Shown here: in pieces, positions 3,511 to 16,647 of the stretch | Layout of the letters: the number at the start of each line of letters is the position of its first letter | How positions within the stretch are numbered: the first letter of the stretch is position 1 | DNA from: Candidatus Buchananbacteria bacterium | GTDB taxonomy: Bacteria > Patescibacteriota > Patescibacteriia > 2-01-FULL-39-33 | Assembly: GCA_903888345.1 (NCBI GenBank) | Contig: CAISTG010000059.1 | Coordinates: forward strand, 1-41,421 | Reading direction: 5' to 3' | DNA length: 41,421 bases | Notes under the pieces: generated by a model | What the model was told of the DNA's origin: nothing | Database searches by the model: none | What the model saw: the letters and a program-made list of their open reading frames with translations, nothing else | Program-made: the position numbers and the translations under genes

Positions 3511-5034
3511 ATGAAAAAGCTTCTTTGTTCTTTAATATTATTGCTGGCGGGATTAGTATTAACTAATAATTATGCTCAAGCCGCCATTGTTATTACGCCC
3601 GGAGACTTGCTTAAAACAGCAAATAATTCTGGCGTATATTATTATGGTATTGACCTGAAGCGTCATTTGTTTTCTAATGAAATTACTTTTTGGAGTTGGC
3701 ATACTGGCAGTTGGAAAGATCAAAACATTAAAGTCATCTCGCAAGACGAATTCGACTCTTTGGACACTGGTAATAATATAACTATGAGGCCAGGTAATAG
3801 TTTTATTAAATTTGATAATAGCGAAATACTTTACGCAGTTGAGCCAGGAGGAATTTTATGTGAAGTTAATCCGACCTTTGCCAACAACCAGAAAATTTGG
3901 AAAGTGATCGTTCAGTCTAGTTTTCAAACTGATTACACTAAATCATTCGATTGCTCGTTAAGCGACTACACTTTGCAAGATGATATGCCGGAAGGCTCAA
4001 TTTTCCGTTATACAGATGGTATTCAAACTTTCTATATGTCGAGTGACGGCTCACGACCAATCGACATGAACAATGGTTTGGCAAGCAATGGCTTTAAATC
4101 AAATTCGATTATCATAATTAAAGACCCAGCGCCAGGATCTTCGGCGCGAATGCGTACTGCCATTACGGCCAAAGAAGATACTTTTAGTATTGATAAAGAA
4201 CTAAATTTAAGGGGTGATTCGGTCGTTAGTAACGTCAGTTCGGGTACCATTAGGGGCTGTAATATTGATAATGGCAAGGGCCAACAAAGCTCTAGTGATG
4301 GTGTGAGTTGGAGCAATTGTCGAGCGACAGTATGTGATACTAATTATCAAGTTACCGCCGGTGCTTGCGCACTTAAACCTGGACTTCAGCCGGCGCTAGT
4401 TCCGACTAAAAACGGTTCAATCAGTAAAATTTCTACCGATGCGCAATGGCTCAGTGATGGTGGTTTTTATATTGATATCTATTGGTTAAGTGATGTATCT
4501 GGTATTGGTTATTATCGCTACCTGTATGGTGATAATCAACCTTATGGTGATTGGATCGCGGCTAATGAAACCAAAAAAATTACTGAGGGTTATTTGTCAA
4601 AAACAACCTTGAATTATTTGCCTTATGATACGGTCCAGAACCTGCAGTTCAAGGTGGCTAATAGTTCCAATAATACTGAAACCACATATTCCACTTATCG
4701 TTTCTTTACACCAAGTAAACAAACGAGGACGACCTCAGGAACCGTTAATTTTAGTTATTCTTATGCTCCGGGCGGAACGACTGGTACTTTGACTGATGTT
4801 GCGATAACTGTTTCTGCTACTTACAATGGCATGCTAGAGTATCGAGAGCTCTATTCTGACGGTAGTCCCATGCAAGAGTGGATTGGCCTAGATGTAATGG
4901 CTGGAACGGGTGATAGTTATCAAGGAACTTTTCATAAAGATTGGGCGTATGGGAGTAGTCGCACTTTTGAATTTAGGATTTCTGCCGCTAACAAGGAAAC
5001 CTATGCGTCTAGGGATACTTTCACACTAAAATAA
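3511..5034 (+). CDS. Secreted surface protein with repeated G-x-L-x-x-x-YY modules
   Basis: This is a 507-residue protein with a clear signal peptide (MKKLLCSLILLLAGLVLTNN, cleavage probably after AQA). The mature part opens with modules of the form PGDLLKTANNSGVYYYG...KRHLF, GNSFIKFDNSEILYAVE and GSIFRYTDGIQTFYMS. The same kind of module recurs in the protein at 36415. The C-terminal half is beta-rich and may hold fibronectin-like or Ig-like domains, including two related blocks with YRYLYGDNQPYGDWI and EYRELYSDGSPMQEWI. The latter look like a tandem duplicated domain. No catalytic motif is seen. It is the last gene of the pgk operon, six bases after the SIMPL gene. A role at the cell surface is inferred. 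Confidence 0.7.
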   Translation: MKKLLCSLILLLAGLVLTNNYAQAAIVITPGDLLKTANNSGVYYYGIDLKRHLFSNEITFWSWHTGSWKDQNIKVISQDEFDSLDTGNNITMRPGNSFIKFDNSEILYAVEPGGILCEVNPTFANNQKIWKVIVQSSFQTDYTKSFDCSLSDYTLQDDMPEGSIFRYTDGIQTFYMSSDGSRPIDMNNGLASNGFKSNSIIIIKDPAPGSSARMRTAITAKEDTFSIDKELNLRGDSVVSNVSSGTIRGCNIDNGKGQQSSSDGVSWSNCRATVCDTNYQVTAGACALKPGLQPALVPTKNGSISKISTDAQWLSDGGFYIDIYWLSDVSGIGYYRYLYGDNQPYGDWIAANETKKITEGYLSKTTLNYLPYDTVQNLQFKVANSSNNTETTYSTYRFFTPSKQTRTTSGTVNFSYSYAPGGTTGTLTDVAITVSATYNGMLEYRELYSDGSPMQEWIGLDVMAGTGDSYQGTFHKDWAYGSSRTFEFRISAANKETYASRDTFTLK

Positions 5035-5038
5035 GATG

Positions 5039-5067
5039 TTGAATTGAAAAAATATTTGTGTTAAAAT
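5039..5067 (+). promoter_or_regulatory. Promoter upstream of the HD hydrolase-enolase operon
   Basis: TTGAAT at 5039-5044 and TAAAAT at 5062-5067 are separated by 17 bases, a good sigma70-type arrangement just after the preceding stop codon. Confidence 0.6.
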
Positions 5068-5093
5068 AGAGGCGGTGTTAAGCCGCCTCTTTG
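5068..5093 (+). terminator. GC-rich hairpin, terminator of the pgk operon or leader hairpin
   Basis: AGAGGCGG (5068-5075) pairs perfectly with CCGCCTCT (5083-5090) and is followed only by TTTGC. Because it lies right after the -10 box at 5062, it may instead be the 5' hairpin of the next mRNA. Both roles are possible. Confidence 0.5.
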
Positions 5094-5103
5094 CATTAAA
5101 ACT

Positions 5104-5745
5104 ATGAATAATTTAGTCGAAAAAGTGCGCGAGATAATGATTGATCGATTAGCCGCCAATAAAGGCAGTCATGATTTTGATCATACGGAACGTGTTTATA
5201 ATATGGCCGTGCATCTCGCTGAGTCTGAGGGTGCTGATCTAGAAGTTATCCAATTAGCAGCCTTATTGCATGACATTGCTCGCAAAGAAGAAGATGATAG
5301 TAACGGGGCCATTAACCATGCTTTAAGAGGCGCCGAAGTTGCGCGAGAAGTTTTGTTAAATTTAGAAGTTATTGAGGATAGGATTGATATAATTTGTGAA
5401 TGTATCGCCCGCCATCGTTTTCGCGATACCTATTTGCCGGAAACGTTAGAGGAAAAGATTATTTTTGATGCCGATAAATTGGACTCGATTGGGGCAGTTG
5501 GTTTGGGACGGGCTTTCTTGTTTGCCGGTGAGGTCGGTGCTCGAATGCACAATAAGGATGTGGATATTCATAATACTGTTGAGTATTCTTCGGAGGATAC
5601 AGCTTATCGTGAGTTCTTAGTAAAACTTTCTAAAATTAAAGACAAAATGCAGACCGAGGAAGGCCGCCGTATCGCCGAAACTCGTCATCAATTTATGACT
5701 GATTTTTTTGACGCGATGAATGCCGAAGTTGATGGAGAAAAATAA
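5104..5745 (+). CDS. HD-domain phosphohydrolase
   Basis: This is a 213-residue cytoplasmic protein of the HD superfamily. The metal-binding residues are visible in order: the H of SHDFDHTERV near residue 23, the HD of LLHDIARKEEDD, a central ARHRF histidine, and the D of FDADKLDSIGAVG. This layout resembles the YedJ/YpgQ-like group of small HD hydrolases, which act on nucleotides or similar phosphoesters. The substrate is unknown. It is followed after 22 bases by eno and shares the promoter at 5039. Confidence 0.85.
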   Translation: MNNLVEKVREIMIDRLAANKGSHDFDHTERVYNMAVHLAESEGADLEVIQLAALLHDIARKEEDDSNGAINHALRGAEVAREVLLNLEVIEDRIDIICECIARHRFRDTYLPETLEEKIIFDADKLDSIGAVGLGRAFLFAGEVGARMHNKDVDIHNTVEYSSEDTAYREFLVKLSKIKDKMQTEEGRRIAETRHQFMTDFFDAMNAEVDGEK

Positions 5746-14108: not shown

Positions 14109-14137
14109 TTGACAAAATATTATCCCTATGCTATAAT
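14109..14137 (+). promoter_or_regulatory. Full-consensus sigma70 promoter of the structured-RNA locus
   Basis: TTGACA at 14109-14114, a 17-base spacer, and TATAAT at 14132-14137. Both hexamers are a perfect consensus, which implies strong constitutive transcription starting near 14144. Confidence 0.88.
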
Positions 14138-14143
14138 AATCTA

Positions 14144-14480
14144 TTCAAGATAGGGTTGTGGATAAGTGAACGAAATTCAACTATCGACTCCGCTACCTTG
14201 GTCGCAGTTTCAAACTGTATTAAAAGATGCCTTTCGGGGCTCTTTGTTAGGGCGGCAGCAAACGTATGTCTGTTGTTGCCCTATATCAAAGGTCCCTGAA
14301 GTGCTGGAGTCATAATTCCGGAGGCCACATGAGGTCTAACGGTCGAGGTTACTCGGACTTTTGCACTGAGGCGGATCTAGGGTTTCTGGCGAAAATGAGT
14401 GATCGTAATGCCACCTAATTAATTTATAGGAGATCGGTGGTAGTCTCCAACTCTCATCATACCCAGAACCCGATTTTTTC
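14144..14480 (+). ncRNA. Candidate large structured RNA, first domain (unrecognised)
   Basis: These 337 bases after a consensus promoter contain no ORF but many pairings. CAGTT/AACTG encloses a 3-base loop (from 14206). GCC(T)-TTCG-(G)GGC lies near 14229. An 11-bp stem joins GGGCGGCAGCA (14250) to TGTTGTTGCCC. AGTGC near 14300 pairs with GCACT near 14363, enclosing CGAG-gtta-CTCG. The last domain is closed by GGGTTTCTGG (14390) with CCCAGAACCC and runs into GATTTTTTC. It includes a possible pseudoknot (see findings). The terminal CAGAACCCG recalls the CR-V segment of RNase P RNA, but no CR-I partner is seen. It is also not tmRNA, SRP RNA or a group I intron as far as can be read. Confidence 0.6.
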
Positions 14481-14837
14481 AAACCATTAGCGGACTTAAC
14501 TTAGCAGGCAAGTCCGCACCCGCTCTTTTGCTATGATGGCGCCAGGCTTAATGCCCGCGCCCTGCCGAGCTCTTCTAACAGAGAGCTCGGCACCCAACTT
14601 TAGATGATAACTTATGGTTGTCAGTTGAAGTTAGTAACGGTACCTAAAATTTGTTATCACTTTGATGCGATCAATGGCGTATGCTTGTCGCCTTGATCAA
14701 ATGCTTAGAGATCAAAGAGGAGGAGGGTTTAAAGCTAAGAAACGGGCACGGCCATAATTAATTATCGCGCCGGTTCGCTTGACTAGTTTCTTCAGTCTTG
14801 ATTGTATCAAAGTGATAACAACTTGGAGGATTTCAGA
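14481..14837 (+). promoter_or_regulatory. Multi-hairpin 5' leader of the first small ORF (possible second ncRNA domain)
   Basis: A run of strong hairpins: GCGGACTT/AAGTCCGC (14490-14517); GGCGC..GGC/GCC..GCGCC (14538-14561); an 11-bp perfect stem TGCCGAGCTCT/AGAGCTCGGCA (14563-14592); CAACT+GATAAC/GTTGTC+AGTTG (14595-14627); and GATCAA-GGCG/CGCC-TTGATC (14669-14698). A 16-bp perfect inverted repeat at 14651-14666 and 14806-14821 encloses the last 170 bases and ends five bases before the GGAGG of the ORF at 14838. The density of stems is far above that of any other intergenic region here. It could be a regulatory leader or part of one ~690-nt RNA. Confidence 0.6.
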
Positions 14838-15161
14838 ATGAAAGAGTTCTTCGACTATTTGATCGCTTTGGCAATCGGAAGCTTCGGCGACGTTCGCGAT
14901 GATTTCGAGACGGTGAACCTGAAAACGGTTACTCCGAAACTGGAACTCACCAGCGAAGGCTTCGAAATGACCTTTGAGGCCAATGGCGGAGAGTGGAAAA
15001 TCTGCCTATCAAAAGAACACGGGCTCCTGTTCATCGAAGTCTACGTGCCGTACACGTCAAGGACGATACCTTGTAGGTACAGCAAGCAAGTCCACTTCTT
15101 TCATGAGGCCGAAGCGAAGGTCATGTACGACAAGATCGTAAATGAACTTCTCGCTGCCTAG
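14838..15161 (+). CDS. Small unrecognised protein of the structured-RNA locus (107 aa)
   Basis: The start is set by TTGGAGG at 14824-14830 and the ATG at 14838. The frame is open upstream, but there it lies in the leader stem. The 107-residue product begins MKEFFDYLIALAIGSFGD and continues as an alternating charged/beta-rich domain (LELTSEGFEMTFEANGGEWKICLSKEHGLLFIEVYV) with a C-terminal helix (HEAEAKVMYDKIVNELLAA). There is no signal peptide. I do not recognise the family. Codons end in C or G much more often than in neighbouring housekeeping genes, suggesting recent transfer or selection for high expression. It is the first of three small ORFs on one transcript. Confidence 0.75.
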   Translation: MKEFFDYLIALAIGSFGDVRDDFETVNLKTVTPKLELTSEGFEMTFEANGGEWKICLSKEHGLLFIEVYVPYTSRTIPCRYSKQVHFFHEAEAKVMYDKIVNELLAA

Positions 15162-15172
15162 ACTACCCGCAC

Positions 15173-15260
15173 TTTACCGGGTGAGACAATTACGTCTCGC
15201 CCGCACCCTGAAGTAGGTTAACTTACTAGTCTACTCCTGAGTGCGACAAAGAGTTTGCCG
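15173..15260 (+). repeat. Hairpins between small ORFs 1 and 2
   Basis: GGGTGAGAC pairs with GTCTCGCCC (9 pairs with one G-T, 15179-15202). A further set around GTAG/CTAC and AGTA/TACT at about 15213-15236 could fold alternatively. They lie between the stop of the 107-aa ORF and the SD of the 60-aa ORF. Confidence 0.5.
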
Positions 15261-15301
15261 CCAAATTAGAAAAATACTACAAGAGGCGAGAGGATAGAGC
15301 C

Positions 15302-15484
15302 ATGCCTGAGCCCAAAGACCTTTACGAAAAGGTCGCGGATGTCTTGTTGCGCCAGTCTGGTAGCGACGAGAACGGACGCCCGTTCGTCGAAGTCGATCCC
15401 AACCAGGACTTCTTTGAAGCGACGCGGGTTAAGTTTCGAGACATGACGCCCGGATCAACGGAGTTCGCTGACGACAGCGAGTAA
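15302..15484 (+). CDS. Small acidic unrecognised protein (60 aa)
   Basis: This is a 60-residue acidic, soluble product starting MPEPKDLYEKVADVLLRQSG, with many Asp/Glu residues and the tail PGSTEFADDSE. The purine-rich stretch GAGGCGAGAGGATAGAGCC precedes the ATG and contains AGAGGA as a likely SD. It has no membrane segment and no recognisable motif. Its length, GC-rich codons and position between two structured RNA segments match the neighbouring ORFs. Overlapping minus-strand frames are less convincing because they lack a start context. Confidence 0.65.
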   Translation: MPEPKDLYEKVADVLLRQSGSDENGRPFVEVDPNQDFFEATRVKFRDMTPGSTEFADDSE

Positions 15485-15493
15485 CACTGCTTT

Positions 15494-15533
15494 TTCACCT
15501 GACTGTATTGCGCATTGCGTGAAACAGTCGGGC
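15494..15533 (+). repeat. Hairpin between small ORFs 2 and 3
   Basis: CCTGACTGT pairs with ACAGTCGGG (9 pairs including one G-T), with a small inner CGC-att-GCG stem. It is followed by the AAGGAG of the 45-aa ORF. Confidence 0.6.
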
Positions 15534-15556
15534 CAAACCTCAACAAGGAGAAACTC

Positions 15557-15694
15557 ATGGAAGCATTCGCGAAAATTGGGACTGCTGTAGCAATTGCCGC
15601 GGCTTGTGTTGTTGGTACCATCTACACCAATGACTCCAATTGCTTATGGGGGATGTTGATTATCCCTATCACCTTCAACTATTGGCCGAAGTAA
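15557..15694 (+). CDS. Very small membrane protein of the structured-RNA locus (45 aa)
   Basis: The ATG at 15557 is preceded by AAGGAGAAACTC, an ideal SD with correct spacing, and the ORF ends at TAA 15692-15694. The product of 45 residues begins MEAFAKIGTAVAIAAACVVG, which forms one hydrophobic helix. It continues IYTNDSN and then a second hydrophobic stretch, LWGMLIIPITF, before the end NYWPK. It could be a small single- or double-spanning membrane peptide. No family is recognised. It shares the strong SD and codon style of the two upstream small ORFs. Confidence 0.65.
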   Translation: MEAFAKIGTAVAIAAACVVGTIYTNDSNCLWGMLIIPITFNYWPK

Positions 15695-15715
15695 AAATCG
15701 GCTACCGTACAATCG

Positions 15716-15847
15716 CTCGACTGCTCTGCAATAAAATGCGGAGCAGTCGAGACCAAACCTCAGACAGTTAGGTTCGCAAGAACATGATTTGACTGCCCTA
15801 TGGCAAATTCGAGTCATGTTCGACCGGCCATAATTGTTTGAGGTTTG
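15716..15847 (+). ncRNA. Structured 3' region of the small-ORF transcript
   Basis: A 14-bp stem (15716-15729 with 15738-15751, one G-T) is followed by a branched domain. That domain is closed by CAAACCTCA (15754-15762) and TGAGGTTTG (15839-15847). Inside it GAACATGA (15780) pairs with TCATGTTC (15814), with an inner TGCC-ctat-GGCA. No ORF is seen here. It may be a 3' UTR or a processed small RNA. Confidence 0.55.
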
Positions 15848-15853
15848 TTTGTT

Positions 15854-15884
15854 AAGAGAGGCTTCGCGCCTCTCTTATTTGTTT
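15854..15884 (+). terminator. Intrinsic terminator of the structured-RNA/small-ORF locus
   Basis: AAGAGAGGC (15854-15862) pairs with GCCTCTCTT (15868-15876), followed by ATTTGTTT. Confidence 0.9.
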
Positions 15885-15945
15885 AAATATATATTTATCC
15901 ACAGCGACATATTGACAAGATATTTATTTTTTAAAAAAAATTATT

Positions 15946-15960: not shown

Positions 15961-16091
15961 GGGAGGGGAAAAGCGTCAGCCATTTTCCATTGCACTTGCC
16001 TAAAAATAATTTTAGGTCGCTTATGCTTAAGTGCGACTGGAGAATATCTGATTTGTCCCTCTCTCAATCCCGCTTGATTGCGGGATTTTTA
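15961..16091 (+). ncRNA. Candidate rod-shaped small RNA with intrinsic terminator
   Basis: There is no ORF, but a near-continuous long hairpin. GGGAGGGG (15961-15968) pairs with CCTCTCTC (16058-16065). TCAG pairs with CTGA, ATTTTCCA with TGGAGAAT and GCACTT with AAGTGC, and an inner CCTAAAA-aata-TTTTAGG hairpin sits near the apex. The terminator AATCCCGC-ttgatt-GCGGGATT (16066-16087) plus TTT follows immediately. The overall shape (closed stem, internal loops, 105 nt) recalls 6S or SRP RNA. However, the SRP apical GGAAG/GCAG motif is absent and 6S RNA is usually longer, so I leave it unnamed. Confidence 0.6.
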
Positions 16092-16203: not shown

Positions 16204-16647
16204 ATGTATAAGTCTATGTCACTAAAACAACTCCTAATTATTGTTATTGCTGCCACCATGATATTTTTGGTATCTTGGTTATTTATAATTTTTGAGGTTG
16301 ATCCGACTACCAGTGGCTGGATCGGTTTGTTAGTTTTTTATGCCAGTTTATTCTTTACTTTGTTGGGCGGCTTATTCGCTTTAGTAGTTATTATCCGCAA
16401 GTGGCGCAATAAGGACGAGCTAGAATATGAAATTGTTTCGCTTTCGGTACGACAGGCAATTTTCTTTTCTTTAACTATTGTTGGCGTTTTATTTTTGCAA
16501 AGCAAGAGATTTTTGACTTGGTGGAATTTGATCATCTTAATTTTAGCAGTTACTTTACTGGAGTATTTGTTTTTAAGTTTAAAACGCAAACCTATTACTC
16601 AAACTGAAACTCCCGCTCCGCCACCGTATATTCCACCTGATTTTTAA
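16204..16647 (+). CDS. Uncharacterised four-helix membrane protein
   Basis: This 147-residue protein appears to have four membrane segments at about residues 9-30, 38-63, 84-101 and 106-126. Between helices 2 and 3 is a short charged loop (IRKWRNKDELEYE), and a Pro-rich tail (TPAPPPYIPPDF) closes the protein. No motif indicates a function. The start could be the ATG at 16204 or the one at 16216. It lies alone between a palindrome and another REP element. Small four-helix proteins of this kind are frequent in Patescibacteria genomes. Confidence 0.7.
   Translation: MYKSMSLKQLLIIVIAATMIFLVSWLFIIFEVDPTTSGWIGLLVFYASLFFTLLGGLFALVVIIRKWRNKDELEYEIVSLSVRQAIFFSLTIVGVLFLQSKRFLTWWNLIILILAVTLLEYLFLSLKRKPITQTETPAPPPYIPPDF

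Follow-up and report, generated by a model that had tools for sequence, protein, structure and literature searches.

A candidate lineage-restricted structured RNA with replaceable small cistrons in one family of Patescibacteriota

We analysed a 41,421-nucleotide stretch of a Candidatus Buchananbacteria genome (hereafter the window) and found that positions 14109-15877 form a single transcription unit, consisting of a promoter, a leader, three open reading frames (ORFs) led by Shine-Dalgarno (SD) sequences and separated by stems, and a terminator. Two domains of this transcript, a 5' hairpin (H5) and a core, are conserved structured RNA, with compensatory base changes far above those of shuffled and slid controls. 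By the sequence-based tests available, the unit is a new, lineage-restricted structured RNA. Our preferred reading, to which we give a probability of roughly 0.45, is a structured polycistronic mRNA, transcribed at a high level, that acts as an expression platform with replaceable small cistrons. The features of the unit are as follows.

14109-14137, forward strand: extended -10 sigma-70 promoter, TTGACA-17-TATAAT, 12/12 consensus bases, TG before the -10 element
14232-14300, forward strand: H5, first conserved RNA domain, a long 5' hairpin with conserved GGGCGGYA...YGCC
14301-14650, forward strand: further leader stems, including a perfect 11-bp stem (14563-14573/14582-14592)
14651-14821, forward strand: core, second conserved RNA domain, helix P1 (GATGCGATCAA... 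/ ...TTGATTGTATC) around a variable interior
14681-14689, forward strand: ATGCTTGTC, just inside P1, mostly conserved across the six genomes that have the core, TGCT invariant
14825-14829, forward strand: SD of ORF1 (GGAGG), a few nucleotides past the 3' strand of P1, partly paired in the minimum free energy (MFE) fold
14838-15161, forward strand: ORF1, 107 aa, SD-led, weak alpha+beta structure model (pLDDT 66)
15162-15287, forward strand: inter-ORF sequence with stems after ORF1, z about -2.3
15302-15484, forward strand: ORF2, 60 aa, SD GAGG at 15290-15293
15498-15532, forward strand: stem-loop 3' of ORF2, CCTGACTGT...ACAGTCGGG, then CCAAACCTCA
15557-15694, forward strand: ORF3, 45 aa, SD AAGGAG at 15545-15550, hydrophobic stretch
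15716-15751, forward strand: stem-loop 3' of ORF3, 15-bp arms, 93% complementary, then CCAAACCTCA again
15754-15847, forward strand: large imperfect 3' hairpin, 39-nt arms, 74% complementary, z = -9.4
15853-15877, forward strand: intrinsic terminator, 10-bp stem, T-rich tail

An earlier note on this DNA had described one unit behind a perfect TTGACA-17-TATAAT promoter, and all 12 positions do match, with the TG extension in addition. The intrinsic terminator that it proposed is also present, with a stem of 10 bp and not of 9 bp. The unit is single-copy in its own genome. The 40 bp from 14109 and a promoter copy in another genome of the same family (G007:C4:22125) give one exact pattern fit, and that copy precedes a different GC-rich gene. 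Near-consensus promoters followed by a short leader and ORFs were also seen elsewhere in family genomes, at L003 (G007:C4), L008 (G001:C17), L010 (G003:C6), L043 (G000:C53) and L185 (G000:C36), of which L003, L008 and L010 are clearly GC-rich; this arrangement may be a general expression design in the family. Perfect DnaA-box consensus sequences (TTATCCACA) lie in inverted orientation on either side of the unit, at 14157-14165 (reverse strand) and 15895-15903 (forward strand), two being found where 0.3 are expected, and the downstream box also occurs after the unit in G004, G005, G008 and G009.

The leader of about 690 nt, called strongly structured in the earlier note, is indeed so: over 14138-14840 the MFE is -259 kcal/mol against -196 +/- 4 in dinucleotide shuffles (z = -15.3), and none of 20 shuffles folded as well. 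Scanned in 200-nt steps, the leader gives z values of about -3.4 to -4.9 and the 3' region -5.5 to -9.4; values over ORF1 and ORF2 are about 0 to -2.7, and those of the flanking genes lie close to zero. The sliding window shows another structured stretch beyond the terminator. The further claim that stem density sets the unit apart holds for the leader, the spaces between the ORFs (more weakly around ORF1 and ORF2) and the 3' end, but the excess is not uniform and is absent from ORF1 itself. Constrained folds gave no consistent closure between the 5' and 3' ends of the whole transcript, and the domains therefore look like separate local modules.

Support for the two conserved domains comes from their alignments. 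In H5, double changes occur in 9 of 20 pairs among six orthologous and two paralogous sequences, eight in all, and the covariation score is 0.38 versus 0.24 in shuffled alignments. In the core, the strands of P1 read GATRCGA.../...TCGTATC in the relatives, double changes are found in 9 of its 23 pairs, and the score is 0.46 versus 0.23. For both domains none of 500 shuffles reached the observed value, and slid controls scored much lower. Non-Watson-Crick cells in these alignments are G-U in 39 cases versus A-C in 7, which fits an RNA of the promoter's strand, although the structure had itself been chosen on that strand. Since the alignments were partly cut by hand, with long core interiors shortened, and six core sequences are few, we do not claim an exact fold for the core interior. 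ATGCTTGTC pairs as a hairpin in the fold of G009, and the interior beyond it is poorly conserved across genera. We considered ATGCTTGTC as the start codon of a leader peptide and rejected this, as the reading frames after it show no relation to one another, G008 has no ATG there and the SD spacing is short.

Homologous units occur in five further genomes of the family (G003, G004, G005, G008 and G009), and H5 and the core are common to all six. Four of the five were found by reading upstream of the gene for a small membrane protein (16204-16647 in the window; present in 8 of 10 family genomes), and in G003, G004, G005 and G008 the unit occupies the same chromosomal place, with pheS beyond the membrane protein gene in the window and in G005. 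Upstream of the unit, these four have the end of a gene resembling a UvrD-type helicase-nuclease, and the window has a MacB/FtsX gene in that position. The sixth unit, in G009, lies at a contig edge and was picked up separately, by the H5 covariance model (R1), at 82.7 bits; the same model scores 74.5 bits at the window copy, and the core models reach 124 bits (R2) and 100 bits (R3). No unit was detected in G001, G002, G006 or G007; the contig of G001 ends at this locus, and in G006 a different gene occupies the place. Between the unit and the membrane protein gene and pheST, the window also holds a second conserved RNA (15962-16087), rod-like and about 110 nt long with its own terminator, which shows compensatory changes in 14 of 28 consensus pairs across six genomes, has no Rfam match and is possibly a 6S-like RNA.

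Searches with H5 and the core through 381 genomes of the class returned the same six genomes, with nothing convincing in the roughly 370 others, and a sample of 192 genomes of the phylum gave one weak match. From these searches the RNA looks restricted to one family. Several candidates were set aside. R3 matches outside the family reached 28.7 bits, and the five that were read in context fall in AT-rich coding sequence, for example an L32-like gene, and are taken as chance. A pattern scan for H5 over whole genomes gave at least 118 stretches, apparently chance matches in GC-rich genomes, among which the only true one recognised was L082 (corresponding to G003). Two H5 matches outside the family are weak and were not accepted, one in G374 at 26 bits and one in G446 at 32 bits; the latter, an H5-like hairpin in another genome of the phylum (L217, 418-470, reverse strand), precedes an AspRS-like gene.

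Known families offer no identity for the RNA. Rfam 15 gave no match in the window at the gathering cut-off (GOLLD, ROOL, OLE, RNase P, 6S, SRP, tmRNA, group I and II introns and riboswitches included), nothing meaningful over the unit at E<=5, and only a tRNA on the five homologous loci; ARAGORN found no tRNA or tmRNA in the window. The earlier note had matched the unit to no known RNA family and had offered, as one of three ideas, a new kind of large structured RNA accompanied by small proteins; the first agrees with these searches, and the second withstands the checks that the note suggested, as Rfam gives no match and covarying homologues exist. We found no paper on structured RNAs of this lineage in the one open-licence library searched.

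The three ORFs were all recovered at the proposed lengths, each with its SD, and their translation is supported by codon statistics and these SDs. Third-position GC (GC3) is 0.65, 0.70 and 0.56 for ORF1, ORF2 and ORF3 versus 0.35-0.40 in six flanking genes, in line with the GC-rich codons reported earlier. The codon-position composition is coding-like, which is clear for ORF1 and ORF2 and less marked in the short ORF3. Only 0.2% (about 0.002) of Markov-shuffled units contain at least three SD-led ORFs that are 40 aa or longer. ORF1 (P0002) has no relative in Pfam, PHROGs, NCBIfam, the PDB, viral contigs, phages, plasmids or 380 other genomes of the class, and a fold search from its poor structure model gave no match at E<=0.001. 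ORF2 has none in Pfam, PHROGs, NCBIfam, phages or viral contigs, and ORF3, searched in the family libraries alone (Pfam, PHROGs, NCBIfam), matched nothing there. A 99-aa antisense ORF (15322-15621, reverse strand) overlaps ORF2 and the start of ORF3 and is probably a chance occurrence.

Orphan ORFs with a GC3 far above that of host genes could point to recently acquired foreign DNA or the small mobile element suggested in the earlier note, with the structure a by-product of composition. We regard this as very improbable, and the homologous RNA with compensatory changes at the same place in four relatives already contradicts it; the unit is moreover single-copy, no ORF matches a family, and comparison with dinucleotide shuffles controls for composition. 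Judged from its sequence, ORF3 probably encodes a membrane peptide, and this 45-aa product with its hydrophobic stretch is what would speak for an RNA-regulated toxin-antitoxin or peptide system, also raised earlier. That idea is barely credible to us, as no ORF has a family match in Pfam, PHROGs or NCBIfam, neither an antitoxin nor an antisense RNA partner was recognised, and the cargo differs between species.

What follows the core in the relatives is a different set of proteins. In G003, G004, G008 and G009 a small Cys-rich protein (QCC-C-KK ... CP-C) is encoded next after the core, and a second Cys-rich protein, FeoA-domain proteins and an ankyrin-like protein are also found among these units. 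The FeoA assignment rests on the G009 protein (Pfam E = 5e-19), which the G004 protein resembles, and the units of both genomes end in the FeoA gene. The homologous units with small Cys-rich proteins at their ends are those at L044 (about 4453-5215), L028 and L029. The Cys-rich and FeoA sequences hint at a link to metals. In G005, H5 and the core are well conserved but no SD-led ORF of at least 35 aa is present. Unrelated cargo and this ORF-less member together mean that the RNA is more conserved than the proteins it encodes, and it is the RNA, not the tiny proteins that vary between species, that appears to be the functional part of the transcript.

The same observations favour the main rival to an expression platform, an ornate noncoding RNA acting in trans (as scaffold, ribozyme or component of a ribonucleoprotein) with ORFs lodged between its domains that are either passengers or code for partner proteins. 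A conserved RNA with unconserved cargo, G005 with RNA and no ORF, the isolation of ORF1 within the class, the fixed place in four relatives and the very strong structure all suit such an RNA, which we rate as possible. It sits less well with the missing long-range closure, with a core just ahead of an SD in five of six genomes, with leader stems at 14301-14650 for which no homologous counterpart was recognised in the relatives, and with the behaviour of H5, which recurs in the window's own genome at G000:C53:47990 and, weakly, at C36:37791 (17.7 bits, accepted mainly on position), in both cases directly after a consensus-like promoter and ahead of an SD-led ORF; occurrence before unrelated genes suits a cis element. 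In its strongest form, a new ornate RNA class of one bacterial family, kept by selection for a trans or catalytic function of its own and used as a scaffold for inserted and exchanged small genes, the proposal is in our judgement unlikely.

The position of the core raises a further alternative, a riboswitch or protein-responsive domain that controls translation of the next ORF. In its favour, a long P1 encloses invariant nucleotides and, in five of six genomes, stands directly ahead of an SD (gap from a few to about 15 nt), the ORF1 SD is partly paired in the window's MFE fold, and FeoA (G004, G009) and the Cys-rich proteins (G003, G004, G008, G009) make a metal signal conceivable. The interior is, however, poorly conserved beyond ATGCTTGTC, the genera have unrelated proteins after the core, the relatives show no sequestration of the SD and no Rfam riboswitch matches. 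We consider this alternative improbable.

The cis-acting platform is favoured by the local domains without whole-transcript closure, the core beside an SD and the reuse of H5 upstream of other genes. The perfect promoter and terminator, the covariation of H5 and the core, and the codon statistics of the ORFs also count for it, as do repeated modules between cistrons: in G004, G008 and G009 a hairpin module, CCAAAACTATCTTG...GATAGTTTTGG, mostly 75-91 nt, sits after a stem-loop and before the next ORF or RNA domain. The window has a similar layout, a stem-loop and then CCAAACCTCA, twice, which is not homologous to that module. In such a platform, the promoter consensus would give high transcription, and H5, from its reuse behind other strong promoters in the genome, would protect the 5' end. 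The core, possibly through binding of a protein or of the ribosome, would set or regulate how ribosomes reach the cistron that follows. The stem-loops after the ORFs would protect or separate cistrons, the outcome being a changing set of small proteins made at high level. Against the platform count G005, which keeps the RNA without cargo, a leader of about 700 nt, much longer than a stabiliser needs, and the variable distance between core and SD, with the SD partly paired only in the window.

Like the ornate RNAs OLE, ROOL and GOLLD, the unit extends over hundreds of nucleotides with many stable stems and is lineage-restricted (Rfam; PMC12286853). Unlike them, it matches no covariance model and has SD-led ORFs and independent local domains, and, in further contrast, we found no phage association. 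With translational riboswitches and ribosomal-protein leaders it shares a P1-closed conserved domain directly before an SD, whereas its cargo genes are unrelated between species, one member lacks ORFs and Rfam gives no match. Structured 5' untranslated regions that stabilise mRNA, such as the ompA and aprE leaders, place a 5' stem-loop near the transcript start of strongly expressed genes. The unit also has its stem-loop close to the start, but H5 is conserved in sequence as well as structure and is accompanied by a second conserved domain and modules between cistrons. RNAIII and tmRNA are dual-function molecules in which a structured RNA also carries small ORFs; here, by contrast, the ORFs are replaceable and separated by modules, and there is no tmRNA match. 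Integron cassette arrays with attC sites likewise hold small, varied ORFs separated by repeated hairpins, and it is the module of G004, G008 and G009 that recalls them. Inspected by eye, however, its ends depart from the GTTRRRY/RYYYAAC boxes, base changes keep the RNA pairing, and no integrase was recognised near the unit.

The finding adds a structured RNA with covariation support and no Rfam family to a lineage whose genomes are small, about 0.8-1.4 Mb, and H5 and the core provide two compact, testable elements with known compensatory changes. What is unusual is that constant RNA domains occur together with replaceable small proteins, repeated hairpins between cistrons and a fixed chromosomal place. 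The finding also suggests a common structured-leader design that these bacteria use to express orphan proteins.
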